In this document: positions 995 to 61,968 of the stretch, piece after piece
Layout of the letters: each line of letters opens with the position of its first letter
How positions within the stretch are numbered: the stretch's first letter is position 1
From: Agelas oroides
Taxonomy: Eukaryota > Porifera > Demospongiae > Agelasida > Agelasidae
DNA length: 64,000 bases
Direction of reading: 5' to 3'
Assembly (NCBI GenBank): GCA_949130485.1
Contig: OX422184.1
Location: 539,943 to 603,942, forward strand
Notes under the pieces: model-generated
Told to the model about the DNA's origin: nothing
What the model saw: only the letters and a program-made list of their open reading frames with translations
Database searches by the model: none
Translations under genes and position numbers: made by a program

Positions 995-3900
995 TCAGAG
1001 TCTTTCTTCAGGCTCCTCCCCTAGAAACTCAACAGCATTGGTGACAGGCTCCCCAGAGGTGGACGTGTCTGCTCCCTTCAGCCATGCCCTCAGAACTTCC
1101 TCAAGGCAGTGCTGGGGATCGTGCTGGTGTCTGACAGCAATTGCCTGCAGGGTGTCTACAGAGACGTGAAGGTGGGCACCGAGAACCTGCCACTTGTCTG
1201 CCGCAGTGTGGTAGAGGGCATCCAGCAGGTTCTGTAGCACGGGTGTGGAATCTGGAGAAATAGGACAATCACTGCAATATTATGTAATATACATGCAAAA
1301 TTAGTGCATAAATGTAAAGACGATAGTTTTAGCTTCGGTCCAGGCCCATTCAGACCAGTGTTCTCACCAGAATTTACAGGCCAAAGGGCACAAATAATAT
1401 CTCATGACCACGCCCCTCATCAATTAGTGATTGTCAGAACCAAACACTTGTACAAAGCATTTTAGTTGAGTTCACTATATCAGAACCCAGACAGTTAAGT
1501 TCAAGTGGCTGTTAAATATATGGGGTGGAACCAAAGGGCACATTGTTGGTTTTGGGGCAGACCCAAAGGGCATATTAGAGCCCACAATGTCCTTTGGAAA
1601 GGCCTAGCGAGAACCCTGATCCAGACCCATCAACTAAAGTAAAAAATGTGGAAATTTAGAGGTTTTGAGGTGAAAATAGGGCATATGAGGGCTGTGAGGA
1701 CTAGTGGTTGTCTGGTTGACGTAGCTCAGTGGCAGAGCACTGGCAGCTCAAGCCAGGGTGAACTGGGTTCGATTTCCTGCAACTACTGGCTTTTTTCACT
1801 TTCCTCTATTTTCACATCAAACATCTAAAGTTCTTTAGGAGACTATGTGTTCCTTGTGAAAAACATATGGTTGAAAAACATTCGACATTTCATCTGAAGA
1901 AGATAGTGTAAAAAAATTACAATGATTTCTTCAGACAAAATCTCGGCAGAAGTTGTACAAAATAATAATTCAGGCAGAGATACAGTGGAGCCATATTTCA
2001 GCCTCGTTCCCAGGCCTCCCCCAAGGCCTGGGAATGAGACCTGTTTCAGCGATGTAGGCTACAGTAATATAGCTTACCAGAGGTATGTTCGGGTAATGAA
2101 CTTCCCAAATGTGCGCTTCCCAAAGATGCCTTGTACGCTGGAGGGTATAATAATAAGTACTGTTAACCCAATCATTTAACAAAGCTGTGTATAACAAATT
2201 ATTTCTGCTATAATCTCATAGATAAGTTCCTGTTTGTTAATACATAATCACAGGTGTTTGTTAATACATAATCACAGGACCAACTTCCTGTTTACAATTA
2301 GATAATCAATTAGGCAATTTCCTAGATCTTCTCACTCCAGGATTATTTACCCCATTCTCAGGCCCTTTAAATCCAGCGTTTGTCACTTGCAGACCAACGC
2401 AGGGAAAGGCCTGGTATCTTCACATAGACTAGTCCTTCACCTGCCAGGCCTCCCCCGTTTTTGTTCTTCGGTTTGCGTTCAGTATAATACACGGAAGCGG
2501 AAGAGCGGCGAAAAACAGGGCTCTTCCACTTCCATGTATTATACTGAACGCAAACCGAAGAACAAAAACGGGGGAGGCCTGGGAACGAGGCTAGGTGAAG
2601 GACTAGTCTATGTAAATATACCAGGCATTTTCCTGCGTTGGTCTGCAAGAGACAAATGCTGGGGTGAAAAGGCCTGGGAACAAGGCTACATGGCGTGTCA
2701 TTTCACCTTCCTTCATAGGATTAAGGGTGAGGTAGAGAAAGTTGTGTGGAGGTTTGGCTCCGACCAGGCTGACTTTGTGTCTCAACCGCTCTGGGGTTTC
2801 TCCCTCCTTCTCCCACTCCACCATCAGCTCACACTCAGGTACCCACTGATCTGGGTCAAAGTAGTCAGCATCTCGTCTGGAAATCTGGGAGGAGATAAAA
2901 CTGCATGCCTCAAGTAGCCATTTGTAAGGGAAATGGAGGATAAGGTGAGGTAGAGGGAGCAAGAGGGGAAGGGGGGAGGGGAGAGGGTGGAGTTAGAAGG
3001 GCGGAGGGAGGGGAGGGAGGGGTTAGAAGGGTGGAGGGAGGGGATAGAGAGAGGGGGAGGTAGAGGGGTGGGAGGGAAGTGAGAGGGGAGAGAGTGGGGA
3101 GGGAGGGGAGGGAGGGAAGCGAGAGGGGAGAGAGGGAGATGGAGGTGAAGGAGAGGAAGGGAAGAGAAGAGGAGGAAGGAGAGGGAGAAAGAGCGAGGGA
3201 AGAGGGGAGAGAGAAACAAGATTCTTATGAAAAAGATTGTAATGGTAGAGACAAGTTCCTGCTGTTCCTGTAGACTGTGCCTCCCTCTCCCTCCCCTCTC
3301 TCCCTCTCACTCCCCCTCCCTCCTTCTCCCTCTCTCCCTCAACATTTCAGAACCAAAGCAATGGTGATATATTAGGCTCCTCACTGTTGGACACGAGCGA
3401 GGGGTGATCCGCCATCCCTGGCAGGTCTTGACTCCATTCTCTGGAATGTCCACTGTGATCTCTCGACTCTCGAAGCTGACTCGCAGAGTCGTTTGTTGTC
3501 TGGCAAAACGGCAATAGTGTTTCTTCACAATCTGTGTGATGGTGTGAGGGTGTGTGAGTGTGTGTGTGCAAGGGTGTGAGGGTGGAGTGGGACTAAATTA
3601 AAGTTATCATGTATTTGTGCTACTGGACACTTCTGGTGCACATACATTACTGGGTATATCTGGGTATTTCAATAATACAGGGACCTGGATAATTAGATAC
3701 TATAACATTAGACCATATTACATCACTTTCTACGTATTTCATTGGATGAACAGTGGAGTATCTACTCCTATTATGTAAATAATAGTTTGCACAAAACTGA
3801 GTTATAGTTTACTGTCTCAATGCGGTTATAAGGTAGCTATACTTGGAGAATATACTCCGCTGCGCCTTGGGTAAACCGTCTAGTGAAGTATATCTGCATT

Positions 3901-6900
3901 TATACTCCTCGTATAGGTAGTATATCCAATACATAGACTACTCTAATTCTGAGTTACTATCATCATCGTGAAATTTCCAGGACACACCTCTTTCTGAGTC
4001 TCAAGGTCCCTTGTGATTACAATGTAAAATCTCCAGTCGTATGGTCCTTGACCCGTGCAAAAGACGTGGGCACAATAGCAGCATGGAGTCGTCTTTCTCC
4101 CAGCCACGCCCACACCATAAAAATGAGTCTGTTGTGTCGGCTGTGTTAGCTGTATGCTACCATAGGAGCTGCGACAGGTAAACACTCCACCCTCCAGAGC
4201 CTTGAAGACGTATGGTAGCTGACCCTCACTAGGGGAGGGTTCGGCCAAGACGAAACTGAGATCAGCAAGCACAGACTCTTCCTCCTCAACTTCATACCTA
4301 GAGGCACAGTGTTGGGTTTCCATGGTAACAGATTTCAGTATGTTCACGTTGCTAGGTGATGATAACCAGAAGACGGGGCTTAAAAGTTCCATGTCCTTTG
4401 GTAGTTTGTACTGCCCATTAAGACTGGCTTTGATGGATATCCTCTCTTCTTCTGAGTCGGAGTGTGCTGGCGTATAAAGCCTGATTCCATACCCTTTCCA
4501 CTCAAATGTGCTACCCTCAGAGGGTACTTTGAATTCTGTCTCTGCAATGACTTTAATTCCACAATGAGAAACTTGGTTGAAAGGTAGGGGGGAAGGGGAA
4601 GGGGAGAGGGAGGGAGAGAGGAAGGGAGAGGGGGAAGGAGAGAAGGAGGGAGAGAGAGAGAGAGAGGGAGGGGAAGTGGGAGGGGGGGAGGAGGAGGGGA
4701 GGAGGAGGAGGAGGAGGAGGAGGAGGAGGAGGAGGAGGAGGAGGAGGAGGAGGAGGAGGAGGAGGAGGAGGAGGAGGAGGAGGAGGAGGAGGAGGAGGAG
4801 GAGGAGGAGGAGGAGGAGGAGGAGGAGGAGGAGGATGGGGAGGAGATAAAGAGGGAAGGAAAGGGAAGAGATAAGAGAGAGGGGAGTGAAGGGAGGGAGA
4901 AAGGAGAGAGGTATAACCCGTCACATGCAATTCAAGTTTTGAGCAGCACAGCAAGTTAAAACAGCACACACAGTGCAGAGGTCATACCACTGGTCTTGTG
5001 AGCCGTGGTGGGTTCAGTATCAATCTGATCAAGATCAAATGACTCTTCTTCTACTCTTCCTTCTTCTTCTACTCTTCCTTCTTCTTCTACTCTTCCTTCT
5101 CTTGATAATCCTCTTCTCATCCCTTCTCTTCCTCCTCTTCTTCCTCCCCCTCCTCTCCCTCCTCTCCCTTCTCCTTCTCCTCCTCCTCTCCCTTCTCCTT
5201 CTCCTCCTCCTCCTCCTTCTTCTCCTCCTCCTTCTCCTCCTACAACTCTTCCAACATCTTCAGACTTCAGAACAGGCAACTCTTCCTCCTTCTCCTCCAC
5301 ATTCTGGAAGTCAAAAGATAAAGGGGGATGACATTGTATAAGATCGCACACAAACAGTGTGTGTGGGCTACACCTAGCCTCATTCCCAGGCTTTCCCCAT
5401 GTGCCTCGTTCCCAGGCTCCATACTGCAAGTGACAGAAAGCAGGGTGGGGACTGGGAACGAGACTACAGTACATCAACATGACATGATTTTGACACCACA
5501 CCTGGCCACTGATTAGCAAGCCTAACCATCTATGACAGCTCATTGCACTAAGTGATATCATGAGGCTGAATCTGATGACTGCAAAAGTATATAGCATACA
5601 CCATACTATTAGGGGGAATGTAGAACATTGTGGGGCGAGCGTGAGCAAGCGATGCACTACAGCATTGACTGTTACGTAGCAGCACGCCTAGCCCTGTCAG
5701 CTTCCCTGCGCCTTGACAAGCGAAGTTCTTTCTGTTCTGCTGTTTCTGCAGAGCGTCGAGCTCTCTCATATTCCTCAATCTGTCTTCTCTATCCATAATT
5801 TTACAGTTTAGCTCATTAATGCGCCACATGCAACAAGCTTGACCTCTTACCCATGCCAGTTGATCTCGTTCCCAGACCTGGGGCAGGGCGCCGCTTAAAT
5901 AGATCATAGAGATATACGGAATCACGTATGTACCATACGTACATATCGAGAATCCCCCAGCCAACTCGCTAGTGTGGGGCTCGCTCACGCTCGCCCCCAA
6001 TTAGCTAGGCCCAACCAATCACAGTGCAGATTGCTTCCAAAAACCTAACCCTTTCTTCCACATGCGTGGTACTAGTCAATTCCTCAATCATTCAACAGTC
6101 TTGTAATCTCATTGGTCCTTACCACTTTTTGGGAATAAGAAATTCGACTTCGTTCACCAGACTGTTTTTCACCGGGTGGCGCGCGCGGGCTGGGCACGAG
6201 ACTATAGTATAGTGTCCCTTGATCAAAATATACCACATAATCAGTATTAACTAACTCTTTAGCCTCATTCCCAGGCCCGCGCCCAGCTTCCCGTCGCTTG
6301 CAGTACGGTTAACCATACTGCAAGCGACGGGAAGCTGGGCGCGGGCCTGGGAATGAGGCTACTAACTCTTACTAGCATGAACGGCTTGCTGAAGAACTTC
6401 TCAATGCAGTCAGCGATCTTCCCCATCTCTAACTTCCTCAAGACATCCAGCAGGTTGCTCCATGTTGGCGACAGTAAGCATCCACATCCGATCCACTCCT
6501 CAAACACAGCCTGGCACCCCTTGTCTGGGGTCATGTGCTGCTCCTTAAGGGCATTGTATATGTGGTTGGAAAATTGGAGTATCTCCGCCAAGCTCAGATA
6601 TTTTGGAGCCAATGAGTTGAAAATGGAGATCGGTATTGCCTTCTCCAGGTAGATGAGGGCACGCGTACTGAAGTGTCCATTGGGGAAGGATGGTGCTGTA
6701 GGGGGTAATGATTTGGGCTTGAAAATTAATAGTCTATCAAGTTGGACCATATCCCTCACTTAACCTCGTTCCCAGGCCTTCGCCCAGCTTCCCGTCGCTT
6801 GCAGTAATATGATTAAGCCGTACTGCAAGCGATGGGAAGCTGGGCGAGGGCCTGGGAACGAGGTTATCCCTCACCTACGTCACTTTTCTGGAGGGTGAGA

Positions 6901-7502
6901 CGGTATGGCTAAATAGACGAACGTATTTCTTCAATCAGATGCCGCGGCTACTATTTTTTCACTGCTTGTTATTATTCAAGGGCGGCGACTATGCAAGGCA
7001 GCGTCTCTTCGAAGAAATACGGTAGTTCTGTAATGGAGGGTGTATCATATCCTTCGTGACTGTGCAAGTGGCGTCGTTCCCAAGCAATGGCCACCTCTCC
7101 AGTCTTTGATTGCTTGCAGTATGCAAATATGCTCAGGTACCATGACGCAAGAGCGCATAAGAACCGGCAGCTAGAGGAAGAGCGTGTAACTCCAATAGAA
7201 GCCTGTAGTCCGATCAAAAAAATAGAACACCCGGCACGTGCTTGTCTACACAGCTGCGCATATGTGTTACTATTTTTAGTACTGGAGGTAAATTCTGACC
7301 AGTTTGGAATTTTACGTAGTTACACGCTCTTCCTCTAGCCGCCGGTTCTTATGCGCTCTTGTTTCATGGTACCTGAGCATACTGCAAGCAACCAAAGACC
7401 GCTCATATCGTTTACATACAACAAGCTGCATGTAGCTCTGCATAGCAGCGATAACTTGACCATGACAACAAAGTGGAACTGATATACACGCACACGGCAC
7501 AC

Positions 7503-7576
<74 letters not shown>

Positions 7577-10500
7577 CACATGCACATGCACATGCACACA
7601 CACTCATGGCACACGGCACACACACACACATGCACATGGCACACACACACACACACACACACGCACACATGCACATGCACACACACACACATGCACATGG
7701 CACACGCACGCATGCACACACACACACATGCGTACATGCACACACACACGCACGCGTACATGCACACACACACACACACACACATGCGTACATGCACACA
7801 CACACACACACACATGCGTACATGCACACACACGCACACACACATGCGTACATGCACACACACACACACACACACATGCGTACATGCACACACACACACA
7901 CACACACACATGCGTACATGCACACACACACACACACACACATGCGTACATGCACACACACACACACACACACACATGCGTACATGCACACACACACACA
8001 CACACACACATGCGTACATGCATACACACACACACACACATGCGTACATGCACACACACACACACACACATGCGTACATGCACACACACACACACACACA
8101 CACACATGCGTACATGCACACACACACACACACACACACATGCGTACATGCACACACACACACACACACACATGCGTACATGCATACACACACACACACA
8201 CATGCGTACATGCACACACACACAAGCTAGAACAGTTTTCCAATTATCAATCTTATAAACTTATGTCTCTTTTGTCGTAAAATTTGTTGTGTGCTAGTTC
8301 AGCCATAACATTTTGAGACAGTAGCAACACCTGCAGATTAAACAAGCTGTGAACTATGAATACTAACAACATCTGCGGCTAGACTACCTAAAATCCAAGA
8401 ACCAAGTGACCTAGTTTGTAAACTACAGTTACAATAGTTTCTATGACTTTCGTTCTTCCGAAAATATATATAGAAGATGGCTGCCAAGTATGTCAGATTT
8501 TTTCCAAAAATTTCTAACACATAACTGCTATGGAAGGTCTAGGAGCTCATCACTATTACTTACTACTCATGGCTTCATAATTATGTGACCAAGATATGGC
8601 ATGGCTTTTGTGGTCGGAGTGGTCTAGGTTAGGTCACTCCACAAGTGCTCTCCAGCAGTTGTATGGTACTATGGAGTACATTGGAATACTCAAGTTCAAC
8701 AGTGCAACTATTAACCCTGGGTAGTGGTGTTGCTAGGATACAGAAGATGTGGGACACCGCTGGTCTATAAGCACGAGGTGCAGAGGTAATAGCTTGCTGT
8801 TGAAGGGGTCAGGGGTCGTGGTCCCCCAGAAAAAGTCTGAAATTTAGAGCCTCTCATGGTTATGGGGTGACTATTTGGCCATTGGCATTGCGGTCTGTCT
8901 TGTGCTTCCCATGACATTGTGATAGGTGATGTGTAGTCGTCCCACCTCACATGCAAATTACGTAGCCTCGTTCCCAGGCTATCCCCACATGCAAACGGTA
9001 AAATCAAACTTCAAGCAACGGAAAGCTGGGCGGAGCCTGAGAACGAGGCTACAAATATAAACAACTAGCTGGGACTTGCCGGACTAGGCCCATTACCTAG
9101 CTATGCCACTGATACAAGGTTGTATCTTAAAGCACTGTTGAAATGAAGCACAATTGCACCTAGCCTCGTACCCAGGCTGTTCATTAATGGTACGAGGCTA
9201 AATTGCACCTTGTGTGTGCCCCATGTAACAAGCCATGGTTGTAACAATGGCACAAGATGTAGGGATGGCCGATGATGCAAAGTGGGGTGTCGTTCCTACA
9301 TAATTTGGTTGCTTTTGGAGATTCCATTCCTGCACATGTTTGTTTTCATTTTGAAAACGTGTCCTGTGTATATATACACAAGCTTACTATGACAACAATC
9401 AACATAGAGTGGGGGCAATCAGTTGTACCATACTGATAAGCCAAGAGTTGGCGGCATGCTTGTGGTTAGAGGTTGTAAAGATATATCTGACCCACTGCCA
9501 AAGTTGAACGAGAAGACTGTGTGTGTACGTGAATGTCATTAGCATAACTCCCATGTGTACCTGTTGCTGTCCTACTTTGGGCAAGCTATGCTCAGCAAAT
9601 GAATATGGCAAGAATTTACAATAAAGCCATTTTAATTTAATCCCGTGAGTACTACGAGTTCTCTCTCTTAAGACTAATGGATGAAACTAGTGTATCCTCG
9701 TTCCCAGGCCTTGCTCAGTTTCTCATGGCTTGCGTACGGTATCGCTAGGACAAGAAGTTTGCAAGCAGCGGAAAACTGGCCAGGGAACGAGCCTAAAGCT
9801 AGCTTACAAAATGCGCAAACACTCTCTTAGAAATGAATATGACAAGAATTTATATCGTCTAGTGTAACCTCGTTCCCACGTCTCACCCAGTACGGTACTG
9901 CTAGGACCGGAAGTTGAAAGCAATGGAAAACTGGCCATGCAGGGCCTGAGGACAAGGCTAAAGCTAGCTCACAAAATCACACTCTGAACAAATAAGGAAT
10001 TTACAGTATACAGTATACAGCTACCATTCTTAAATGGCAGCTTAGGTTGCACTCTCTCTCTTAAGATTAGGCAAACAAACCATGAAAGGTGAATACTGTC
10101 ACCACATAGTTACACGAGAAGACTATTTGTGTGTGTACGTGAATATATTGTCACCATTCCTGTTGCTATGACGTCTCTTATATGGTAGAAGAATTTTACT
10201 GTAGTGAAGTTCAAGAACCCATCTTGTATTACAGTACGATTGTGGATTTCTTTCTTGCAAGATTGTAACTGCTGTGAGATCGTAGCAAGAGCTAGTGTAG
10301 CCTCGGCCTGGGTAAGAGGCTAGAGCTGGGGAAGCTTCTATTAACATGTAACTTGTATTACACATTTCCTTTCGCTAGAACTAGTGAAGCTAGCTTCTCT
10401 TTCAACTGCACACATACTACATTCTACCGTATAGCTGGAAAATTTGACAGGGAATTAAATTTTGTGGTTTGGCAGTTGGGGTTGAAACCTCCAAATTAAA

Positions 10501-12334
10501 ATTCTATTTCGTATGCAACGCGTAATGACATAATGCTTGCAGTAGTGCTCTTGGCCCCGTCCGGCGCCCCTCTACGCCAGTTTGTAAATTTGTGAACTCA
10601 CGGCTTTGTTCAAGTACCTCAAGCGAGAGACGACAACGCTCCTTGATAAACGGACATGAAACACCACTGCCAAATTTAAAGACCGCCAATATTTCCGGCT
10701 ATACAGTATTAGCTATACATTTGGCTGTATGGTGCTGTTTCATTTCTAAGGAACTGCGTAGACCATATATGGTAATTACAATTCAGGCGCCAAAATTTTT
10801 TTTGCACAATGTTTCGCCCATTTACTTTTGTTAAAAATTGGTAAATTATAGTGAAGGCACTCAGTACCAATCGTACTGTATATATTTGCAGGGTTTTTTT
10901 GTGGGAGAAAATGTTTTCACCTTTCGTCAGCAATTCGGGTTTTGAAGTGGGAGGGCAAAAAATAGCTTTGTACATTTTGTAAATCATGATCTTACCGTTA
11001 GTTACCATGCTTGGTTTAGGCATCTGACGGTTAATTACTGACCTAATTGTCAGTAAGGTTACACATCTTGAAACTCTCCTCTCAGATTACATAGTAGTAT
11101 ACTTCCTTACCACTGACAGTCCCCCTGAACACCCGTGAGGCCAATCCACTCCCTTCCTCCCCGGTCACCAACAGCACTTCTCCATTAGGGAGGGACACAC
11201 TGCAACTGGAATCACAAGCAATCGGTGTGCTTCCAACAGCCACCCAGGATCTCTTCTGGCTAGAGTAAGCGTGAACGGTAGCACTTTGCTCTCCTCCGAT
11301 GGACAGCAGCTCTGTGCCGAGTAAAGAAAGGCTGGAGTATCCATAGGGAACATCGGGAAAGCTCTGCCAAACGGATTCATCTTTATCTATAGACTTGGTC
11401 GATGTCAAAACTTTGAGGGAGGTGCGGAATATGTTTCCATCCAGCCACCGGCCACCAGCAAGATACCAGTTTCCCTTGTCTTGCAAAGATTTCATCCAGT
11501 AACTTGCACGGGATATGCACTGGGCCTTCCATGAAGACCAACGATTTCCATCAAATACTTGCACCAGAGTTAGCGCACTCTTGTCATGCCCACCAGCCAC
11601 TACGAGGTGATTGCTTATACTTGTAGCTGATGCTCCACGACACTTTCTCAACATGGCGGGGATTGGTTCGGTCCAAGTAAACTCTTCACCCAACACCCAG
11701 AGTTTGTTTGTGATGTCATGATTAGATATGTCCACGCCCCCCACCAGCACCAGCTGTGATTGGTAAGTGGCAAGGGCATAGTGATACGTTGGTGTATCGA
11801 TCCCCCTCCAAATATTCTTCTTGATGTTATAAATATAGACGAAGGCATCTTCAGAGAGGCCCATCCCTCTCGCAACCCCACCGCCAAGGTAGATTTGGTT
11901 CTCCAGGACTGCTGCCTGGGGATGCAGCATGTTTGTGGGTAGACTGCTACATTCATGCCATTCCAAGGTAGAAAGAGGGTGAAGGATATTCACCTGAAAC
12001 AGGGGAAAAAATATGTTTACGTTTAGTCACATTGGCTGCAATGGAACTGGCTATTGGTACTACTGGCAATAGAATAGCTGCAAATAATATAGCTCTGCAT
12101 TTACACGATATTGTGTGAATGTGCGCGCGCAGTGTAGCCCATGAGGTCTGGTATAATTGGCTGAGATGCATATTCAACAATTTATGCATTGATGTAGATG
12201 TCGGGTAGTTTATACAGTTCATAACAAAATCAGCCATAGAAATCTTAACAGAATAGCCACACAGCAATTACATTTTTAGGGAGATATGGCTCGTTGATTG
12301 TTCATGCACTCACCTCGTTCTTGGGACGATCCAT
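995..12334 (-). CDS. Gene 1: Kelch-death-ZU5-UPA-death domain protein (minus strand, spliced)
   Basis: Reconstructed exons, all on the complement: 12314-12334 (start, MDRPKNE), 11111-11993, 6373-6695, 4988-5303, 3988-4571, 3385-3531, 2707-2884 and 995-1251 (stop). All junctions are GT-AG, phases agree, and the frame stays open for about 902 residues. The second exon is a Kelch propeller with repeated GG and W positions. The third is a death-like helical domain. The fourth is a Glu/Gly/Arg-rich linker with repeated EEEGRV units. The fifth is ZU5, containing a YGIRL core and QHC. The sixth and seventh form the UPA-like part, and the last is a death domain. The autocleavage position reads H-F-Y (4117-4125), so serine is missing. 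A small phase-1 exon before the last, present in paralogs, was not found and could exist. It is the most divergent paralog and the only one on this strand. A cytosolic sensor/adaptor role is inferred. Confidence 0.75.
1715..1786 (+). pseudogene. tRNA-like relic
   Basis: This 72-nt stretch has a D-arm (GCTC/GAGC), a perfect 5-bp anticodon stem (CTGGC/GCCAG) and a TTCGATT T-loop. The acceptor stem pairs badly and position 33 is G rather than T. I read it as a decayed tRNA or the head of a tRNA-derived SINE, not a functional tRNA. It lies in the last intron of gene 1. Confidence 0.5.
2348..2688. mobile_element. Nested inverted-repeat element of the TAGCCTCG hairpin family
   Basis: A long imperfect palindrome: the segment from about 2370 to 2525 pairs with about 2525-2665. 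The right terminus is a variant of TAGCCTCGTTCCCAGGC in reverse, and a second copy of that terminus lies inside the right arm (about 2574-2594). The left arm lacks about ten bases of the inner terminus. The right end is only 17 bp inside the intron from the gene 1 splice donor at 2705-2706. Confidence 0.65.
2936..3215. repeat. Polypurine low-complexity tract (GGGA/GGAG)
   Basis: About 280 bp almost wholly of G and A on the plus strand, in the intron between two gene 1 exons. Open frames here are low-complexity shadows. Confidence 0.8.
4580..4915. repeat. Purine tract with a long (GGA)n trinucleotide array
   Basis: An uninterrupted GGA/GAG array spans about 4690-4835, flanked by GGGA/GAGA sequence. 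It sits in the gene 1 intron next to the Glu/Gly-rich exon (4988-5303), which has the same purine bias on the coding strand. This suggests the linker exon grew by the same kind of repeat expansion. Confidence 0.9.
5377..5467. mobile_element. TAGCCTCG-family hairpin element, degenerate
   Basis: Starts with TAGCCTCATTCCCAGGC and ends with the reverse complement GGGAACGAGACTA. A second internal GCCTCGTTCCCAGGC lies at about 5404. It is in the intron between the gene 1 death-like exon and the Glu-rich exon. Confidence 0.6.
5627..6002. mobile_element. Inverted-repeat element with GGGGCGAGCGTGAGC ends
   Basis: The left end GGGGCGAGCGTGAGC is matched by its reverse complement at about 5979-5998. 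The interior holds no convincing gene; a charged minus-strand open frame is likely incidental. A related left end occurs at about 63153, and similar ends bound the 37846-40709 block. Confidence 0.5.
6259..6361. mobile_element. TAGCCTCG-family hairpin element with 9-bp target duplication
   Basis: 103 bp, a nearly perfect palindrome with TAGCCTCATTCCCAGGC ends. It is flanked by exact 9-bp direct repeats CTAACTCTT (6250-6258 and 6362-6370). The right duplication is part of the gene 1 splice-donor region, so the element sits 11 bp inside the intron from the donor of the death-like exon. Confidence 0.9.
6761..6866. mobile_element. TAGCCTCG-family hairpin element, second copy
   Basis: 106 bp, with TAACCTCGTTCCCAGGC ends and the same internal core as the element at 6259. 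It is flanked by TCCCTCACT and TCCCTCACC, a 9-bp duplication with one mismatch. It lies 66 bp upstream of the acceptor side of gene 1's death-like exon. Confidence 0.85.
7504..8225. repeat. (CA)n microsatellite with a CATGCGTACATG higher-order repeat
   Basis: About 60 bp of pure CA, then irregular CACATGCA units. From about 7729 the motif CATGCGTACATG recurs every 20-45 bp, separated by CA runs of varying length. Six-frame open reading frames (Cys-Val or His-Thr polymers) are artefacts of the repeat. Confidence 0.95.
8963..9051. mobile_element. TAGCCTCG-family hairpin element
   Basis: The ends TAGCCTCGTTCCCAGGC and GAACGAGGCTA are inverted. Flanks CAAATTACG and CAAATATAA match only in part, so the target duplication is decayed. 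Confidence 0.7.
9161..9200. mobile_element. Minimal 40-bp TAGCCTCG-family element with 9-bp target duplication
   Basis: Only 40 bp: inverted ends TAGCCTCGTACC and GGTACGAGGCTA around a short middle. It is flanked by exact 9-bp repeats AATTGCACC (9152-9160 and 9201-9209). It shows how little sequence the family needs to be moved. Confidence 0.88.
9597..9975. repeat. Diverged tandem block with decayed hairpin elements
   Basis: The AATGAATATGGCAAGAATTTA motif neighbourhood occurs twice (about 9598 and 9832). Each copy is followed by a decayed CCTCGTTCCCA hairpin and an AAAGCTAGC stretch. This is a local duplication in the gene 1 intron. Confidence 0.55.
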
Positions 12335-12443: not shown

Positions 12444-13556
12444 ATGGATAACCAGTTACTCGCCTTCAAGAATTGTTCTAATTTTACCGATGAACAACTT
12501 ACAGTAATCGCTCTTTTCAGAGGCGCCACTGCAGCTGCATGCTGTGTCATTTTGTTTTTAGTTCTTGTGACACTTCTGGTGCTTGCAAGATTCTACTATC
12601 AGAGAGTGTGTGGGTCTGTTCTAAAACACCTCACCCTTGGGTTCACAGCTACTAACGTTCTTTACCAACTTGTTCTTGCACTGCATCTCCAGTATTATCT
12701 CAACCCACATGATTTAAAATTCTGTGAAGCAGATGCCTTTTTAGACCAATATGTGGGTTCTGTTCTGTTGCTGTTCATGCTGGAAATAGCCCTGTTTTTG
12801 TTCTTCAAAGCATTACACGTGTCTACCTCTTGGGAGTTTGTTGATGTGTACTACGAAAAAGTAAAAGAGTGCAAGTTCATATTTTGTGGCTGGAAGATCA
12901 ATAAACTAGAAGTTGCCATTTTTGTTTTTGCAGTTACCCTCCCCCTTCTCTTTGAATGGATACCGTTCACCACTAACTCTTATGGCCCTCTTGGAACATG
13001 GTGCTGGATTCGAAATTTAGAGGAAAATTGCAATTTATCCAGTGCAGGAATGCTGGAGCAGGTGTGGCTATGGGATGTGCCATTTGTAACTATCGCTTTT
13101 CTAACATCCTTACTTTTTACAGTGTCACTGTACCTGCTGGGATGTGGTGTTAAAAATGCCAAAGTTGAAAAACTGGCGCTATTCGAAGTGGGAATAACTA
13201 ACATTGTATTCTTCCTTACCTTTCTGGTCCTCACAGTATTGTGGTGCCTTCAAGAAACAGGCACAGTTTCTTCTTATATTACCTGGCTACTTATTGCAAT
13301 CTCTATCCCACTTGCTCTGACTGTGGCCTCACTGGCTACGCTGTTTTCCATCCACCTGCCTCTTTCTTTCATGATCGCCTGTGCATGTTGCAAACACCAG
13401 AGACAAAAAAGCATCTATGATGTAACTATTGACCAGAGTACTGACAGACATCAACCCAGTTCCACCACATGGGACTCCCCTCACAGTTCTGCTGATAATG
13501 AAATCATACCTCTCGTGTGTGACCAGCAACAACCAAACTATGGCAGCAACACTTAA
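12444..13556 (+). CDS. Intact 7TM receptor (GPCR-like), single exon
   Basis: 370 residues, intronless. The frame is open further upstream, but I chose ATG 12444 because earlier sequence overlaps gene 1 exon 1 and the promoter. The N-terminus is short with N-glycosylation sequons (NCS, NFT). Seven hydrophobic segments lie at roughly residues 26-50, 60-85, 95-122, 150-172, 205-232, 242-268 and 275-305. The second extracellular loop has a TWCWI motif, as in cAMP-receptor-like and secretin-superfamily receptors, so I place it near those; the ligand is unknown. The tail is rich in Ser/Thr/Gln. The start region is divergent with gene 1. Decayed copies follow each plus-strand Kelch gene, which links the receptor and Kelch families by descent. 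Confidence 0.8.
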   Translation: MDNQLLAFKNCSNFTDEQLTVIALFRGATAAACCVILFLVLVTLLVLARFYYQRVCGSVLKHLTLGFTATNVLYQLVLALHLQYYLNPHDLKFCEADAFLDQYVGSVLLLFMLEIALFLFFKALHVSTSWEFVDVYYEKVKECKFIFCGWKINKLEVAIFVFAVTLPLLFEWIPFTTNSYGPLGTWCWIRNLEENCNLSSAGMLEQVWLWDVPFVTIAFLTSLLFTVSLYLLGCGVKNAKVEKLALFEVGITNIVFFLTFLVLTVLWCLQETGTVSSYITWLLIAISIPLALTVASLATLFSIHLPLSFMIACACCKHQRQKSIYDVTIDQSTDRHQPSSTTWDSPHSSADNEIIPLVCDQQQPNYGSNT

Positions 13557-15778: not shown

Positions 15779-16067
15779 GCGGAGCTTCAACCACAAGCAA
15801 CTTTGTCTATGGATCGACAACCGAAGGTAATGCATCTACGCACCCAGCATGATTTTAACAATACCAACGAAGACTAATAAATATATGCTGATGCTTACTG
15901 CATGCTTTCAATCAGCAGCTACTGGCGGAGCTTCAACCACAAGCAACTTTGTCTATGGATCGACAACCGAAGGTAGGCCTAATGCATCTACGCACCCAGC
16001 ATGATTTTAACAATACCAACGAAGACTAATAAATATATGCTGATGCTTACTGCATGCTTTCAATCAG
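15779..16067 (+). repeat. Tandem duplication of gene 2 first exon and its flanks
   Basis: About 145 bp from the ACTGGCGGAGCTTCAACCAC region to the end of intron 1 occurs twice in a row. Each copy has ATG, the coding piece MDRQPK and a GT donor (15809-15826 and 15955-15972). Either can splice to the Kelch exon at 16068. The same arrangement is in gene 5. Confidence 0.85.
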
Positions 16068-32162: not shown

Positions 32163-32488
32163 TAGTACACTGAAGACAAAGAGAAATACTAGGATCATTC
32201 TAGGCCTCCCATTTTTTTACTCTTTCCATTTGTGTTTTCAACAATACACGGAAGCCGGAAATACACAAGTCAGCAAACAGGAAAGTGAACGGATTTTTGT
32301 AAATGTACAGCCAAGAAAACAAAGTCAACACTACAAAACTCACAACTGTAATCAATCAATCATTACCTTACCATACATGTTCTATAGACTATGCTTAGAC
32401 TATGATAAAGTATAGCTGCCTTTGCTGCCTGTCCATAGTTTACTATTTGGCAAGCATGCATTGTGAGCTACCCAGCACATAACTGGTA

Positions 32489-51200: not shown

Positions 51201-53845
51201 GTAGTCTCTACTTATCCTCATCCCCACCCCCCTTTGTATTTGATCGTTTCAAATGTGAAGGGAGAAGGCCTGGGATATCTTGTCACATGTGTCAGGAGTT
51301 CACGAACCAGAACATAAACGATAGTTGGACTCTGAGATTTTAGTACAGTAGGGAACATAAAGCACACATACATAAAGCTAGCCTCGTTCCCAGGCTCTCC
51401 CGGAACGCGAGTTGTACACGCGTGGAGAGCCTGGTATCTATTCTACGTAGGCATGACGTAATCGAAATAGGACTAAAACAGAAAGGCAACGTTTTGCGCG
51501 TTTTTCAACCAACTGTGCGTTCAACGCTCGGTGTGTATGATATTCAACCCCCGATAACTAGATACATGTAGTAAGTTGGCCGCTACCTTCACTCTTTTTC
51601 CTGTTCTGAGTCTCGGGTACGCCCACGCGCAATTAAGGTCGTTCTACCTCCGTTCTATCTTTGAGGGTTCTCACGTGAGATTAAATACCAGGCTCTCTCC
51701 GCGTGTACAACTTCAATATCGCGTTCCGGAGCGGAGGAGCCTGGGAACGAGGCTAACATAAAGCTCCTGCCTTGGTACAGCAAACAATGTGCAACAAATT
51801 TACATAATTCTTGCTATGGAACTTGCAGATCAAGAACAAGAACAAATACTGGAGGAGTTACAACTGTGTCATGATGAGAGGGAGGCAGCCCTGAGGCACA
51901 TCAAGTCAGTGAAGGCAGAGAACGAGGAGTTAAAAAGACAACTACACTACATCTATCCTGGTGGAATGGAAACAACAGGTATACAAAATAAATGAATGAT
52001 TTATCAACATAGCATTTTCATAACATTCTTGTGATCACTCAGGCTCTCTTAAAGGGCTGGATGTCATTGCAGAGACCAACTTCATAGTCACCAACCGTGC
52101 TCAGAGCTTCAGCTGGACTGGGTATGGGCTGAAGCTTCACATTCCCGCGGGAGCCCTGCCAGCTGGCCTGGAGGAGTGTAGACTTCTCCTGAAGGTGGGC
52201 TTATCTGGTCAGTTTGCACTCCCTGAGAATACCTCCCTCGTAAGTGCAGTGTACTGGCTAGACAGTGAGCCTCGACGCAAGTTCTCCAAGCTCTTCACTA
52301 TGGAGATCCAGCATTGTGTGAAGCCCACTCATACATCGAAGTTAAAGTTTGTCCATGCAAAATGTTCACAGAAGCACCTCCCCTATGAATTCAAGGATGT
52401 AGAGGGAAGAGTGTTTTCCACTGACACTGCTTACGGATGTGTGCAACGTGATCACTTTTCTCTGCTTGGTATGGTCATTAGTAAGCTTGTACCACAAGTT
52501 CAGTTGTATTGTGCCAGCCTCTACTATCTGAGGACGGGAGTGAATCGGATAGATATTCACTTTGTCATCACCAAGGACCTAGAGGCACATGCCACAGTGA
52601 GTTTGGAGCTATTGACTTACTGCGATCGCTACTCATTGCTGTCATGTGTCCAAATATTTCTACATGCAGGTTGTTGAAGAGAAGTACACAGCCATGGGTG
52701 CCATATTTGAAGCTGAAATGCGGGTTGATTTTGAGTCAAATAGCATCTCACTGCAAGAAGTTGATCTTGAAAATGGATGGAGAATATTTCCAGTGTTTCA
52801 CCCTGAGGTACTATGCACATTAATATTGTTAGACACAACATGTGATGAGGTCGATTGTTTGTTCTCACAGATCACTAAAGAGGAGGTGGATATTTACAAG
52901 CCTGGACGGCATATCCCCTCCTGCAAGTTGAAAGCAGAGTGGACTAAGCAGAGCAAGCCATCACGACTCATCCATAAAGTAACCCTGAAGGGTGCTAAGC
53001 AACCATTGAACTACATCAACATTGACCTTGACTGTGACCCCATCCCACTAGGTACTTTAATCATATGGGAACCAAACCCAAATTCGTAACTTTTATTAGC
53101 CTTTGCCTACCTCCTACCTTTTGTGACTTGGGAAGTTTTAAAGCATGTCTGCACTATACCCCCCTGAAAGTTTATCATGCAGTCAAAGTTCATCATGAAT
53201 ACTGCCTGTATGAGTTCAATGAATTTTACCTGAGTTCTGTCTGTTGTACAGAATTGTATTCCCTACTTACATCCATGAATATGATGATCATCTGCTTTCT
53301 TTAATCTAACTTGAGTGCACACTATGTAGCAACAGCTTCTGGTTGTGTCTGTCATGTTGTTATATATCATTTGCTTGATGAAAGAGACGAAGCTCAACCT
53401 ACATGATTGTATTTTACACAGGTGGTGAGATTACAGCCAGAAATGTACCAGGGCAAGGTAAACTGGTCTAAGACAATGTCATGCACTGTTATGAGCAATT
53501 GTTTCTTTCATAGGTCAACATAGAATGTTACCAGCTGGTTTGGACAGTGAACCAAAGCTTCCAGATCTCATGAATGAAGTAGCTGCCAAGACCCCGAGCA
53601 AATGGAGAGACATAGGCCTTCAGTTGGGGCTGGATCAGGGGGTACTAGAGGGAATTGCCACCATCAGCCCAAGAGACACCAACCTGTGTTACAGTAATGT
53701 CTTCACACTTTGGGAAAACCAAAATTCAAGAACATATCCCTACACCTGGTCGACAATAGTGGAGGTTCTGCAAGTTCGATCAGTTGGGGAGAAGAGATTG
53801 GCAACCAAAATCAAGAATAAACTGACTGGACCTCCACCTCAGTAA
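48223..53845 (+). CDS. Gene 5: Kelch-death-ZU5-UPA-death domain protein with H-F-S motif
   Basis: Exons: 48223-48240 (or duplicate 48369-48386), 48482-49355, 49482-49783, 49850-49901, 50759-50932, 51829-51978, 52043-52596, 52670-52807, 52871-53051, 53422-53457 and 53514-53845. The frame is open for about 936 residues with the same phases as gene 2. It differs from gene 2 by a few substitutions (for example DYWDII for DSWDVI; S for P in the death-like domain). It keeps two residues that gene 2 lost in the C-terminal death domain. H-F-S is at 52453-52461. The intron before the coiled-coil exon carries a 377-bp element absent from gene 2. ATTAAA is at 54001. Confidence 0.8.
51379..51755. mobile_element. 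377-bp TAGCCTCG-family element with 9-bp target duplication
   Basis: Ends TAGCCTCGTTCCCAGGC in inverted orientation, with imperfect inverted arms of about 60-70 bp. It is flanked by exact 9-bp repeats ACATAAAGC (51370-51378 and 51756-51764). The D1 copy (near 18961-18975) has the empty site with one repeat. Confidence 0.93.
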
Positions 53846-54302: not shown

Positions 54303-55054
54303 ATTCTGTGAAGCAGATGACTATTAGACTAATACATAGGTTCTGTTTTGCTGCTGTTATACTGGAAATAGCGAACCCTGGTCCTGTTCTTCAAAATATT
54401 ACACGTATCTACCTCTTGGGAATTTTTTTCTGCAGTTACCCACCCCCTTCGATTCTTTTTGTCATTCACACCTAATTAGCTCTTATGGCCCACCCGGACC
54501 ATGGTGGTGGATTCATGCTTCCTAGAAAAACAGCACTTTATCCAGTGCAGGAATACTGGAGCAGATATGGTTATGGGATATGCCATTTATAACTATTGCT
54601 GGCATCTGTACTTTTTACGGTGTCACTGTACCTACTGATATGTGGTATTAAAGATGCTAAAGTTGAAAAACTGGCACTATTCGAAGTGGGAATAACTAAT
54701 GTTATATTCTTCCTTACCTTTCTGGTCCTCACAGTGTTGTGGTGTCTTCAAGAAACAGGCACAGTTTCTTCTTATATTACCTGGCTACTTATTGCAATCT
54801 CTATCCCACTTGCTCTGACTGTGGCCTCACTGGCTACGCTGTTTTCCATCCACCTGCCTCTTTCTTTCATGATCGCCTGTACATGTTACAAACACCAGAG
54901 ACAAAAAAGCATCTATGATGTAACTATTGACCAGAGTACAGACAGACATCAACCCAGTTCCACCACATGGGACTCCCCTCACAGTTCTGCTGATAATGAA
55001 ATCATACCTCTCGTCCGTGACCAGCAACAACCTAACTATGGCAGCAACACTTAA
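54303..55054 (+). pseudogene. 7TM receptor relic downstream of gene 5
   Basis: D2 counterpart of 21502-22251, with the same broken first half and an open C-terminal part (54596-55054). Confidence 0.8.
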
Positions 55055-55084: not shown

Positions 55085-55107
55085 AGGGTGATTGATTGAT
55101 TGATTGG

Positions 55108-55155
<48 letters not shown>
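55085..55155. repeat. (TTGA)n tetranucleotide repeat
   Basis: A shorter, purer version of the array at 22285-22515. Confidence 0.9.
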
Positions 55156-55157
<2 letters not shown>

Positions 55158-56199: not shown

Positions 56200-59100
56200 A
56201 TGGATCGACCTGAACCAGAGGTAATGTATAATCCACGCTATCAATGTCCTACATTATGATCATCACAGTACAATTCAATTTTGTCAACGAAATACGGTAG
56301 CTGACAGAGTATTGATGTTCCGACTTTGCCAGGTGGATCTCCTCCACCCTCTCGCCACTCTGGCGGAGTGGAAAGAGTACAGTAGGATGCCAGTGGGTAT
56401 GCGTGATGCCCAGGCTGTGGTGCTAGGAGACAAGGTCTACATTGGAGGAGGAGATACACCAACCGGTCCATCATCTGACCTCCTCATTTACGATTTCAAA
56501 AAGGATTCCTGGGACATAATCAAAACTCCTACGCAATTATACAGCCTTGCAGTCTACCGTTCTCAGCTGTTATTGGTGGGAGGAATAGTATGCTCTCATA
56601 ACACTGTTACGAATAAGATATGGGTGTTGGATAAGAAGGCCGATATAGATGAGCCTGAAGGTTGCTGGGTCGCATCCTTGATACCTGCCATGCCAACAGA
56701 ACGCTTTGGAACATCTGCTGTTGGTGTGGGCAACCATCTCATAGTGGCGGGGGGAGACAAAGGTGGCCTTGATGGTCGTCTGAATGTGGTCGAAGTATAT
56801 GATGGTCATAAGTGGAGGACAGTCCAGTCTCTCCCACGATCATGCTCTCGAATGAAGTCTGTTGTTCATGAAGGGTTCTGGTACTTGGCTGGTGGAGTAG
56901 ATCAGGGCAAAAAAGTTTTCTATGCCGCCTTTGAAGACCTAACAGCTCCAGAGAGTGCTGAACAGACCGGAATATGGGTCGTTTTGCCCGATGCACCTTT
57001 GGAACGTTCCACTCCAGTCATATTTGGAATGCAGCTAACCACTATGGGAGGTTTGTATAGGTCAGCTATCCACGCTTACTCCCATCGCACCAGAAGCTGG
57101 GTACCTGTAGGAAAGATGCCAGTTGCTCATGGCTTTTCCTGCAGTGTAGTCCTCCCAAATGGAGGACTGCTGATGGTCGGAGGAAAGACTCACCATGGGA
57201 TTTCGTCTGATGTATTTAGAACAAAACTTCAGAGTAAGTCTGCTGGGTTGTGGCCTGGGAAATGATCGAGGCTGAATCTAATTTGTATGGTTGTGCATTA
57301 TATATATGTAATTGTTACCATTGATCCTAATAGCAGAGTATAGTCTGACTTGCACTTAAGTTTTGCTGCAGATTGATTTAGTTACCATTACTCTTCCCAC
57401 CAGCTACATCTTTATCTGATGGCAAATTCACTCTAAATGACCTTGATCGGTTGGAGGCTGCAAGTGGAATTTCCGTTTACGAGCAGTTAGCTCCTGAGTT
57501 ATTGCCTAAAATTGCATCAACCCTGCACTTGGATGCACCTACTCTTAACAACCCAAAGCAGTTGTTTGAAGAGTGGATCTCAGGAAAGAGTGCACTACCG
57601 GCAACCTGGCCGATACTGGTTGGAGTACTTCTAGGTGTACGCCATCCACTGGGTAGCGAGATTGAAAATTTCTTCAACACACAAACACCTACGACACGAG
57701 CAGTATCACTGGTGCGAATGTGTAATTGTCATACATAATATACTTGTCTCTTCTTTACACTTTGTTATCCAATTTTACAGCTCCTAGAACAGAAGAAGAA
57801 GAATGAACAGTCACCATCAGGTGAAGAGAAAATCAAATCAGAAGGTGGGAACACTACCATTCAGATTATCCCTGTTGCAAAAGATAGACGTTCATAACAG
57901 CCCAAGTTCTGGAGTATAGAAGCTAGGCCATCTTTGAGGTTGTAGCAAGGAGGGTTTTCAGAGGTTCCTGAATTTCATGGACTTGTTCTACAGATCGTCA
58001 TTTGAGGTAGCCTTATATGCTATGGCTGTGTTGTGTGATGATACGATTATCATGATGTCTTTCTGGTCCATAGATAGTGAGCTAGATGCAGGCTAAGCGT
58101 ATGTATCCACAAGTTTACACCTAAGAATCAATATGTTACTATTGCTGGCTACACATGGTGGATTTCACAGAGTTGTCCCATAGATCACTGTTTTAGGTGG
58201 CCGTCATGCTGTGGCAGCGTTGGTGGTGCAATTATCTTTCTTGGTCTATAGTATGTGGATGGTGAGCTAGATGCAGGCTGAGAGTAGGGATAAACTAGCC
58301 TCGTTTCCAGGCCTTCCCACCGTTCAGTTTTTGATCGCATACTACAAGCGCTCAAAAACTGGATGGTGGGAAGGCCTGGGAACGAGGTTAGGGATAAACT
58401 TAATATGCACAAGTTCACACCTCTGCGTCCTCATTAGGATTGGGCTTGAGTAGCCCTAAAATGCTGAAAAGCAATGAAATAATTTACTAAATGTAGTAAA
58501 ATTTCCAGCATTTCACCACTTGTTGGCCACATGTTGTTATGTGTAATTGTGTTTGGTTGATGAATTCTTCTACTGAATCTGATTGGTCAACATCAGGCTC
58601 ATGAAAGCTAATGACCTGTGCTAGACCTTTGCTTCACCCACCCCCATGGCAGTGCTATGAATATATAAGCTGGGATCTCACACTGTTTTATTCATCACAG
58701 CTGGTTCAGATAAGGTAGAGCATCGAGGTGTTTCATTGGTCAGTATAACATGAATACTAACAATCTGTACTAGACCATCTTAACACCTCCATGAGAGTAC
58801 TGTGAATAAGGCTTGCCTTTTGGTAGGAGAGACTCACAGGGCAACAACTCAAAGGTGGTCAGGCCATTATATAGCAAAGGCTGAAAAGGAAGTGATAATC
58901 CATGCAAAATTTGTTTTAGTTCTGTTTTGGCTATCAGGAGAGCTTGGTGTATTTTAGTACTGTTCAGCTGTATGAGACCAAAGCTATAAAAGTTCAAAAA
59001 ATGCTTCAGATCTGCCGGAGTGGTGCTGCAGAGTCATTCATTGCTTGTTGTACCACAGCTGGCTTGGGTAAGGCGAAGGTGGAGGAACAGGAGATCCAGG

Positions 59101-61968
59101 CAGAGGTTGTGGAGACAGTGGAGCAGGAGATCCAGGCAGAAGACACAGCACAAGGTGTGTGATTGGTCAGCATCTCATGATCTTTGCTCTCCACACTTGC
59201 ATGAGATTCCCATGAATATAATTTGACTTGAAAGTTTTACCACCCACTGAAAAGAAGATTTTTCTGTTATCACCTACTCAAAATTGGAAGCTTTTGCCAA
59301 TGAATGTTTCAGGGCAAGACAGTATGAAACAATGCCACCATTTATGACCATGCATACAATCATGTTCACTTCAGCCCAACTGCATGGGTAAATCACTGTG
59401 GCAGTGAGCAAAGCGAGTGTGGAGGGGGTGTAGCACAGGATACTGGTATTAGTTAGAGTAGTCTTGAGCTTATATCCATCAGAGCTGATGCTTTCTGGAA
59501 TGTCAACAATGCAGTCTTAATTAGTGACAGAGGCACGTGTGTGCACTTATTGGTAGACATTAGTTTATCTACTGTGAATCAGCAGCTCATGAATTCCAGT
59601 ATGTACTCATCCACCCCCATGAGTTGGTTATGAATAAAGATTGCCTGATGTTTTCTTAGTTTAATATCCAAAGCTATACTGAAGCTAGTTGTCAAATTGC
59701 ACATTCCAGGTAGCTACCACGGCTTTGGTGCCCAAGACAACGTTTGCTGGCACAAGTTTTACATAGCAACTTGGTTACATAGTTGGTCTGCCTACAAATA
59801 TAGTTTTGCTTGATCGTCCTATTGCAGAAAAGCAGATTAGCATGTAAATACAAATTGTTGCTATGCAATTTACAGAGCAAGAACAAGTGCGGGTACTGGA
59901 GGAGGAGTTACAACAGTGTCGTGATGAGAGAGAGGCAGACATGGGGCTCATTGAGACACTGAAGGATGAGATTGAGGAGCTAAGAAGACAGCCACACTAC
60001 ATCCATCACAGTGACATGGAAACAACAGGTATATAGTAATAATCTATCAACATGGCATTTGGATAACATTCTTGTGATTTAGGCTACCTGAGAGGGATGG
60101 ACGTCATTGCCGAAACCAGTGCACTGATCACCAACCAGGCCGAGACCTTCAACTGGGCAGGCTATGGACTGAAGCTCCACATTCCTCAGGGGGCCCTGCC
60201 AGCTGGCTTGGAGGAGTGTAGACTCCGCCTGAAGGTGGCCTTATCTGGTCAGTTTGAACTCCCCCAGAGCACCTCTCTTGTGAGCGCAGTCTACTGGATA
60301 GACAGTGAGCCTCGACGCAAGTTCTCCAAGCATCTCACTCTGGAGATCCAGCACTGTGTGAAGCCCACTGATACCTCAAAGCTGAGCTTTGTTCAAGCAA
60401 AGTGCTCCCAAACAGACCTTCCCTATGAATTTAAATATGTTGAGGGAGGAGTGTTTTCCAGTGATAGTGCCTACGGATGTGTGCAATGCAACTGCTTCTC
60501 TCTGTTTGGAGCAGTATACTATTGGCTAGTGCCGCAAGTTCAGCTATATTCTGCCAGTATCTACTACCTGAGGAAGGGAGTGAAGCGAATAGATATTCAC
60601 TTTGTCATCACCAAGAACCTGGAAACACATGCAACAGTAAGTTCCGAGCTATGTACTGTGTGTGCTCCTTATTCATTTTGTCACTTGCTGAGTACATGTA
60701 TTTCTACAGTTTGTTCAACAGAAGTACCGTACCAAGGGTGCCATACTTGAAGCAGAAATGCGAGTTGAGTTTGAATCAGACAGCATTTTATTGCAAGGAG
60801 GTATTCTTGAAGATGGATGGCAAATAATTTCAGTGTTTCACCCAATGGTAAGATAGGTGCTGTGTACATTGTTAGTTCTGGAAAAGACCTCAGCAGTGGT
60901 TGATATTTCATATCTTCCCACAAAATGTTACACACAGTTTTCAATTAGCCTAGCTATTTATAGTCTGACTTAACTGTAGTAACAAATACTTTGCTAAATT
61001 TTTAGCAACAGGTTTTGTTGACTGTTCTTACAGATCGCTAAAGAGGAGGTGGACAGCTTCAAACTTGGACAACGAATCCCCTCCTGCCAGCTGAAAGCAA
61101 AGTGGACCAAGTCAGGCAACCCATCAGAGTTTATCTGTAGACTAAGCCTTAAGGGTGCTAAAAAATCTTCCAACTACTTTCACATTGACCTTGACTGTGA
61201 CGACATCCCACCAGGTACTTACTTTAATATTGTGAATGGTCCAGAACCCAAATTCTGGACCTTTGCCACCTCCTACCTTCAGGGGATTATAGGCTACTCT
61301 ATAACCTATGAATATCTAGTCAAAGTGCATCCTATATAACACATGAATGAAACATGAATGAAACATGAATTTTGCCAGAGTTTTGTTCCTTGTACAGAAT
61401 TAACTGCAATGCTATGGAATACAGAGTGCACATCATTATAGCTGACCTGTTCTTTTTATTCATCTTGAGGGTACTCAGAGCAACAGCTTTGTGATGTTCT
61501 TATTGCTTGTTGCAAGTTGTATGTCTACAGCTAACATGTTATTTCACACAGGTGGTGACATTATACCCAGAGATGTACCAGATCAAGGTAAGCAATACAA
61601 AGTGATACAATGCCATCCACATGTTTTCTTCCACATTATTATATATAGGTCCATCAGCTGGGTTGCACAGTGAACCAAAGCTCTCGGACCTCATGAACAA
61701 AGTAGCTGCAAAGATCCCGAGCAAATGGAGAGACATAGGCCTTCAGTTGGGGCTGGATCAGGGGGTACTAGAAGGAATTGCCACCATCAGCCCAAGAGAC
61801 ACCAACCTATGTTTCAGTAATATCTTCACACTTTGGAAAAACGAAAATTCAAGAACACATCCCTACACCTGGTCGACAATAGTGAAGGTTCTGGAGACTC
61901 CAGCTGTTGGGCAGGAGAGTCTAGCAAGTAAAATCAAGAATAAACTGACTGGACCTCCACCTCAGTAA
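56200..61968 (+). CDS. Gene 6: Kelch-death-ZU5-UPA-death domain protein with C-F-S variant
   Basis: Exons: 56200-56220, 56333-57233, 57404-57711, 57781-57844, 58701-58727, 59059-59154, 59876-60028, 60083-60636, 60710-60847, 61034-61214, 61552-61587 and 61649-61968. All are GT-AG, phases agree, and the frame is open for about 932 residues. It is the duplicate of gene 3 but keeps a 27-bp linker exon whose donor is lost there. Small in-frame differences occur in the linker. The autocleavage position is C-F-S (residues 661-663, 60493-60501). The ATTAAA found after genes 2, 3 and 5 is deleted here, so 3' processing may differ. An element of the TAGCCTCG family sits in intron 4. Confidence 0.78.
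58296..58390. mobile_element. TAGCCTCG-family hairpin element with 9-bp target duplication
   Basis: 95 bp, ends TAGCCTCGTTTCCAGGCC and the inverse, flanked by exact GGGATAAAC repeats (58287-58295 and 58391-58399). It lies in the gene 6 intron. Confidence 0.92.

Follow-up and report, generated by a model that had tools for sequence, protein, structure and literature searches.

The 64,000-nucleotide stretch of Agelas oroides DNA analyzed here (C2:539943-603942 of the assembly; hereafter the window) carries, between its positions 995 and 61968, six copies of a gene that encodes Kelch repeats, a first death fold (DD1), a coiled coil, a ZU5 domain, a conserved segment of ~150 amino acids (aa) at the position of a UPA domain, and a final death domain (DD2) that runs to the stop codon. 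Five copies lie on the forward strand and one (G1) on the reverse strand. The introns, ZU5, and death domains indicate animal DNA. The Kelch-death-ZU5-death arrangement is a genome-wide family and not a local oddity, and the six copies of the window are part of it. Judging from sequence, the family looks real and apparently undescribed, and we think it probable that it is a lineage-expanded set of Kelch-headed, ZU5-gated death-domain sensor or adaptor proteins. This reading builds on the domain order, its recurrence at many loci, ratios of non-synonymous to synonymous substitution rates (dN/dS) below 1 in comparable paralogs, and a Phe-Ser (FS) motif at the end of ZU5, and from these we propose further below what the proteins might do.

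Copy B was read by hand, and its model then served as the query for spliced protein-to-DNA alignment. With this query the copies scored 4759 (B), 4262 (B'), 3117 (A), 3116 (A'), 1757 (C), and 1040 (G1), compared with 42, 42, and 47 for three block-shuffled versions of B DNA and 41 for one unrelated region. These scores bear out the six-copy cluster of the original prediction, which had omitted the minus strand of G1. Gene B (23488-29206, forward strand) has 11 exons, at 23488-23508, 23614-24514 (Kelch), 24664-24971 (DD1), 25041-25110, 26339-26434, 27108-27260 (coil), 27314-27867 (ZU5), 27938-28075 and 28292-28472 (UPA position), 28802-28828, and 28887-29206 (DD2 and stop), with a predicted product of 922 aa, no stop or frameshift, and intron phases of 0, 1, 0, 1, 1, 1, 0, 0, 1, and 1. 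Gene B' (56200-61968, forward strand) is likewise intact, with identical phases, a predicted 923 aa, and the same 11 exons at 56200-56220, 56333-57233, 57404-57711, 57781-57844, 59059-59154, 59876-60028, 60083-60636, 60710-60847, 61034-61214, 61552-61587, and 61649-61968.

Gene A (15955-21042, forward strand) comprises exon 1 (15955-15972), the Kelch (16068-16941) and DD1 (17068-17369) exons, a linker (17436 to about 17487), the coil (19033-19182), ZU5 (19247-19800), two exons at the UPA position (19874-20011 and 20075-20255), a short exon at 20625-20660, and DD2 (20738-21042); gene A' (48369-53845, forward strand) is a near-identical copy. Gene C (40776-45833, forward strand) is the single decayed copy that had been foreseen, a pseudogene with a frameshift near 41579 and a stop, both in the Kelch exon, a scrambled DD1, and a largely missing ZU5; its UPA-position and DD2 exons are still open. 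G1 (995-12334, reverse strand) has diverged most of all copies, with 38% identity to B and an unchanged order: exon 1 at 12334-12314, Kelch at 11993-11111, DD1 at 6695-6373 (donor 6372, phase 0), ZU5 at 4571-3988, the UPA position at 3531-3385 and 2884-2707, and DD2 at 1251-995. Spliced alignment found no exon joining DD1 to ZU5 in G1, and its DD2 is eroded, ending early relative to paralogs on contigs C6 and C21. Thus, of the five continuous frames originally predicted, those of B and B' are clean and those of A and A' are open save for one uncertain linker micro-exon in each, whereas G1 lacks its linker and has a short DD2. Every copy starts with a short exon 1 peptide, MDRPEPE in B, B', and C, MDRQPK in A and A', and MDRPKNE in G1, followed by a phase-0 donor in 6/6.

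Comparison of the window DNA with itself describes a tandem array whose copies are of graded age, with identities of 95.9, 99.7, 99.3, 92.6, 82.5, and 83.3% along the duplicated block. This unevenness (82.5-99.7%) rules out a uniform second haplotype (haplotig) as the source of the block; the A/A' pair alone could still be an assembly doubling. The array has the appearance of birth-and-death evolution: A/A' would be a recent duplication, B/B' have diverged from each other, and C is dead. Just beyond the window end, at C2:607242-612935, lies a seventh Kelch-DD1-ZU5-DD2 copy, which is decayed and carries a stop.

The Kelch, ZU5, and two death-fold assignments of the original prediction hold up in Pfam scans, profile comparisons, and a structural model of DD1. 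Six repeats were counted by eye in the Kelch exon of B, and the whole B protein reaches 69.4 bits for Kelch_1 (cut-off 20.1) and 74.5 for Kelch_6 (cut-off 25.3); Kelch is above the Pfam cut-off in B, B', A, and G1. Against Pfam ZU5 (PF00791, cut-off 21 bits), the ZU5 exon of A scores 22.8 and G1 25.2, with full-length B (16.0), B' (19.0), and A (19.4) below, and the family was matched at E <= 0.01 in 58 of 62 members. The predicted model of DD1 gave its best alignments to death folds only and has the six helices of that fold. For DD2, a profile built from the six window copies matches the FADD death domain (E 2.1e-4; PIDD entries at E 0.43 and 0.96), and a paralog on C7 reaches 24.7 bits for Pfam Death (cut-off 22.6) with its best stretch in DD2; DD2 of the C21 paralog scores 13.3. 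Kelch, Death, and ZU5 are all above cut-off within single spliced paralogs on C6 and C7, the two paralogs in which Death passes. A direct comparison of DD1 with DD2 by hhalign (probability 36%, E 4e-4) was not used as support.

The same parts recur across the genome (259.3 Mb on 141 contigs). Search totals are lower bounds, as the best candidates were scored (150 of 166 for ZU5, 131 of 400 for Kelch, and 150 of 592 for DD2). The ZU5 exon of B' has at least 148 matches, fragments included, of which the 114 best placed fall on 20 contigs, and there are at least 137 matches to the Kelch exon, 29 to DD1, and at least 150 to DD2. Pairing was counted over 127 of the 137 Kelch, all 29 DD1, and 134 of the 148 ZU5 matches, with the weakest Kelch and ZU5 matches left out; the 68 of 150 DD2 matches included were selected by eye, and no DD2 count is drawn from them. 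At least 30 Kelch loci on 11 contigs (Kelch ranks 1-8, 10-29, 35, and 40) have a ZU5 match within 7 kb downstream on the same strand, in agreement with the original view that the Kelch and ZU5 parts belong together. With a stricter ZU5 set, such pairing holds for 28 of the 37 best Kelch matches, compared with a mean of 0.12 and a maximum of 3 in 2000 random placements (best 37 of 137 Kelch and 114 of 148 ZU5 matches, several contig sizes being approximate); outside the window cluster it holds for 22/30. Within 15 kb, ZU5 lies downstream of Kelch in 29/37, compared with 4/37 on the opposite strand and 9/37 upstream, the latter being expected because of the tandem arrays. Among weaker Kelch matches, ZU5 lies downstream in only 4/90. 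Five Kelch exons at C6:9.13-9.57 Mb, 44-45% identical to B', have no ZU5 within 15 kb downstream among the matches used; from their sequence, these may represent the same propeller with another partner or none.

Relatives were also sought among proteins. Residues 505-922 gave no relative among candidates limited by whole-protein length, the Kelch-DD1 part gave two distant proteins, and a profile of the tail gave 127, of which the best 120 were used. Two scans of a genome contig collection and two of a viral contig collection confirmed no relative.

The 120 database ZU5 sequences, many of which may derive from this species or a close one, were aligned with the five window copies for the triplet at the end of ZU5. 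The cleavage site of PIDD is HF/S, located after its ZU5 domains, and that of CARD8 and NLRP1 is SF/S; both the Ser and the Phe of this motif matter, and UNC5b has Leu for Phe (PMC3210808, PMC8081665). FS is present in 116/125 sequences, in which B' counts twice because its exon is also database sequence P0005: HFS in 68, SFS in 17, QFS in 10, GFS in 7, RFS in 5, CFS in 3, EFS in 3, NFS in 2, and DFS in 1. The nine others are HFC (4), HFY (3), QFY (1), and QLS (1). After removal of sequences at least 80% identical, FS remains in 79/85. Among the window copies, A and A' have HFS (at residue 137 of the exon translation in A), B and B' have CFS, in which F and S are kept and the first residue is changed, and G1 has HFY; all seven Kelch genes read elsewhere in the genome have HFS. 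By analogy, self-cleavage between F and S is probable for the HFS copies (A, A', and those seven), and their two halves would then remain associated, as has been reported for CARD8; G1, whose triplet lacks the nucleophile, is probably uncleaved. In conservation, the motif Ser is 25th among 172 columns, so its retention could also be structural. A second catalytic His was sought as well and rejected, which speaks against cleavage: no column is conserved, and the copies without HFS do not compensate, the association running the opposite way.

We propose that the protein would be cytosolic, with the Kelch propeller as the input that binds a ligand or partner, and with the coiled coil and DD1 driving oligomerization. 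The ZU5-UPA block would then be a lock on the C-terminal DD2, in the way that ZU5 silences the effector part of NLRP1 and UNC5b, and release would free DD2, the output, to nucleate a death-fold platform (for the mechanism of ZU5-UPA proteins, see PMC3210808 and PMC8081665).

Several observations weigh against this reading. The structural model of the ZU5 exon is poor (predicted local distance difference test score, pLDDT, 44.5), and the Foldseek list obtained from it was disregarded; for DD1, Foldseek alone gave no match with E below 1. No window copy reaches the Pfam cut-off for Death, nor do the C20 and C21 paralogs, and the dN/dS of DD1 between B and B' is 0.74. The UPA domain of the original prediction was not confirmed: the segment has no UPA profile or structure match in comparisons of the G1 segment and of 7-member and 20-member profiles with PDB sequences, or of members with Pfam, comparisons made without a UPA positive control. 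The label therefore rests on position and on conservation (20/20 loci), and we treat the segment as a putative UPA. The triplets of B/B' (CFS) and G1 (HFY) depart from HFS, and the His that is required in NLRP1/CARD8 (H942/H1186/H270) has no conserved counterpart, with His in 29/125 and 25/125 at two candidate columns. In A, His residues stand 28 and 35 positions before the Ser when counted along the sequence, compared with 27 in NLRP1/CARD8. Because no counterpart of this His is conserved, self-cleavage is not assured.

The lack of a conserved second catalytic His also speaks for an alternative in which the ZU5 block has a structural role, like that of ankyrins or UNC5, and the protein acts as a scaffold or adaptor without any part in cleavage or cell death. 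ZU5-UPA-death tails do occur in UNC5b and ankyrins (PMC3210808), and two ankyrin-ZU5 open reading frames (P0092 and P0103) belong to the family. Nevertheless, we regard this alternative as unlikely, given that FS is so widely kept here whereas UNC5b has Leu at the Phe position, and that the pair of death folds in each protein, the many copies that have diverged, and the NACHT-LRR (leucine-rich repeat) frames before the same ZU5 block have the look of an immune-type expansion.

It is more doubtful still that two adjoining genes, one for Kelch-death and a separate one for ZU5-death behind it, were duplicated repeatedly as a pair. Many ZU5 exons have no Kelch nearby: at 20 loci around the best 20 of the 109 ZU5 matches outside the window, ZU5 and the two UPA-position exons occur in order at 20/20 and DD2 downstream at 17/20, but Kelch upstream at 6/20 (seven genes), leaving 14/20 without it. 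The linker exons are also the least certain part of the models, above all in G1; on C7, ZU5 is missing from the vicinity of two Kelch-DD1 loci, and in two C10 paralogs with Kelch and ZU5, no DD1 was found and the linkers are broken. On the other hand, DD1 has ZU5 291-2374 bp downstream in 26/29 cases and Kelch upstream in 27/29, and B and B' splice through without a stop. Intron phases at shared junctions agree across copies and contigs: among six paralogous genes that were spliced, those on C20, C7, C21, and C6 have the Kelch-DD1 junction in phase 1 and post-ZU5 phases of 0, 0, and 1, as in B. The C6, C7, and C20 paralogs contain no stop or frameshift, and the C21 paralog needed two frameshifts, both outside the domains.

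Over domain exons, with linkers left out and without a significance test, dN/dS is 0.39 between B and B' (Kelch 0.15) and 0.37 between A and B; dS is saturated in comparisons with G1. There is very little to recommend the view that the copies are mostly relict or recently dying duplicates of little function, since the pseudogene C, the eroded last domain of G1, the stop in the seventh copy, and the 8 non-synonymous and 0 synonymous changes between A and A' (too few in 830 codons to interpret) are set against these ratios and against the clean splicing of the C6, C7, and C20 paralogs.

Related ZU5 blocks also follow heads other than Kelch. These loci were read as neighboring open frames, and their status as single genes is unproven. 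At two loci on C6 (L022 and L024, about 1.60-1.65 Mb), NACHT and LRR frames are followed on the same strand by a death-like domain and then by the ZU5-UPA of the Kelch-ZU5 family, which from the sequence would be an NLRP1-like order; the death-like domain of L022, the one of these two loci that was tested, passes the Pfam cut-off (22.8 vs. 22.6). On C11, a protein kinase frame (L017, 4310-5788, forward strand) lies directly upstream of ZU5-UPA-DD2, and database frames include, besides the two ankyrin-ZU5 sequences, one coiled coil-ZU5 recognized by eye. Tentatively, and with rather less confidence than we place in the Kelch-headed sensor family itself, ZU5-UPA-death might be a self-cleaving signaling chassis used in roughly a hundred places with exchangeable sensor heads, namely Kelch-death (about 30 loci), NACHT-LRR-death, protein kinase, ankyrin repeats, and coiled coil. 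On this view, an ancient combinatorial system of ZU5-gated death sensors would survive in two forms, PIDD1 and NLRP1/CARD8, and the Kelch head would have been lost or gone unnoticed elsewhere.

The likeness to PIDD and FIIND proteins that had been proposed at the outset is supported, and now extends to the FS motif. As in PIDD1, the ZU5 of the family ends in an HF/S-type motif, and a death domain forms the C-terminal part (PMC3210808). PIDD1, however, has LRRs and more than one ZU5, whereas the proteins here have a Kelch propeller, an extra death fold, one ZU5, and a putative UPA, and Pfam LRR was not matched at E <= 1 in the five window Kelch-ZU5 sequences scanned. With NLRP1 and CARD8, in which FIIND (ZU5-UPA) precedes a CARD, they share a ZU5 block before a death-fold effector and the FS motif (PMC8081665), but the window proteins have no NACHT or CARD match in Pfam (E <= 1), their last domain is a death domain, and H270/H1186 have no conserved counterpart. 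UNC5b and ankyrins share the ZU5-UPA-death order of the tail (PMC3210808), the UPA being putative here; in contrast, the window proteins show no Ig or ankyrin match in the Pfam scan, and UNC5b is without the motif Phe. The Kelch propeller is shared with BTB-Kelch proteins (KEAP1 and the KLHL family), although Pfam gave no BTB/BACK match in the window proteins (E <= 1). The Kelch domain of KEAP1 binds DPP9, a regulator of NLRP1/CARD8 (PMC11773481), which we take as a coincidence and not as evidence.

Among early-diverging animals, NACHT-Zu5 is reported as one of the shared architectures (PMC12909245). The C6 loci L022 and L024 described above resemble it; their head is NACHT-LRR, whereas that of the window genes is Kelch. 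In the sponge Amphimedon, a combinatorial expansion of proteins with death-like and TRADD-N domains comprises 357 proteins, and other TRADD-N proteins are fused to FIIND and UPA-ZU5 with predicted autoproteolysis (PMC8195603). Because death-fold and ZU5 fusions in marine invertebrates are described there, domain shuffling around death folds is already known. The accessible part of that paper names no Kelch-ZU5 order, however, and TRADD-N was unmatched in the Pfam scan of the window proteins. Similarly, the text available of the Dysidea avara paper (PMC12909245) does not contain "kelch" and mentions ZU5 once, as NACHT-Zu5, and Kelch and death-domain genes of sponges are given separately in the part of PMC6208332 that is accessible. 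As originally supposed, no description of the Kelch-death-ZU5-death order was found in the open-access literature so far as its text was available; subscription journals and protein annotation databases were outside the scope, so novelty is provisional.

Other features of the window accompany the array. An intact gene for a 370-aa multi-pass membrane protein (12444-13556, forward strand; six hydrophobic segments in a simple scan and no Pfam family above cut-off) stands head-to-head with G1, the start codons being ~110 bp apart. Fragments related to it trail the Kelch genes at 21790-22248, 29900-31092, 45918-46334, and 54593-55054, and the duplicated unit therefore carries both genes. A reverse transcriptase frame (38337-40103, forward strand; RVT_1, E 1e-40) lies upstream of pseudogene C, flanked by two arrays that encode a similar short repeat (~37.8-38.1 kb and 40.45-40.67 kb). 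An open frame at 31707-32213 on the reverse strand has a HIRAN-like domain slightly under the Pfam cut-off (22.9 vs. 24.7), and the introns of G1 hold a long CA-rich minisatellite and a polypurine/polypyrimidine tract (7483-8280 and 4588-4900). An Rfam search gave 0 matches.

In most known ZU5-gated death-fold sensors, the head is LRR (PIDD1) or NACHT-LRR (NLRP1). The natural HFS, CFS, and HFY differences among the paralogs of one cluster make self-cleavage directly testable. A Kelch-headed version with two death folds, at about 30 loci in a genome with at least 148 ZU5-exon matches, would suggest that the ZU5 switch was a general platform early in animal history.

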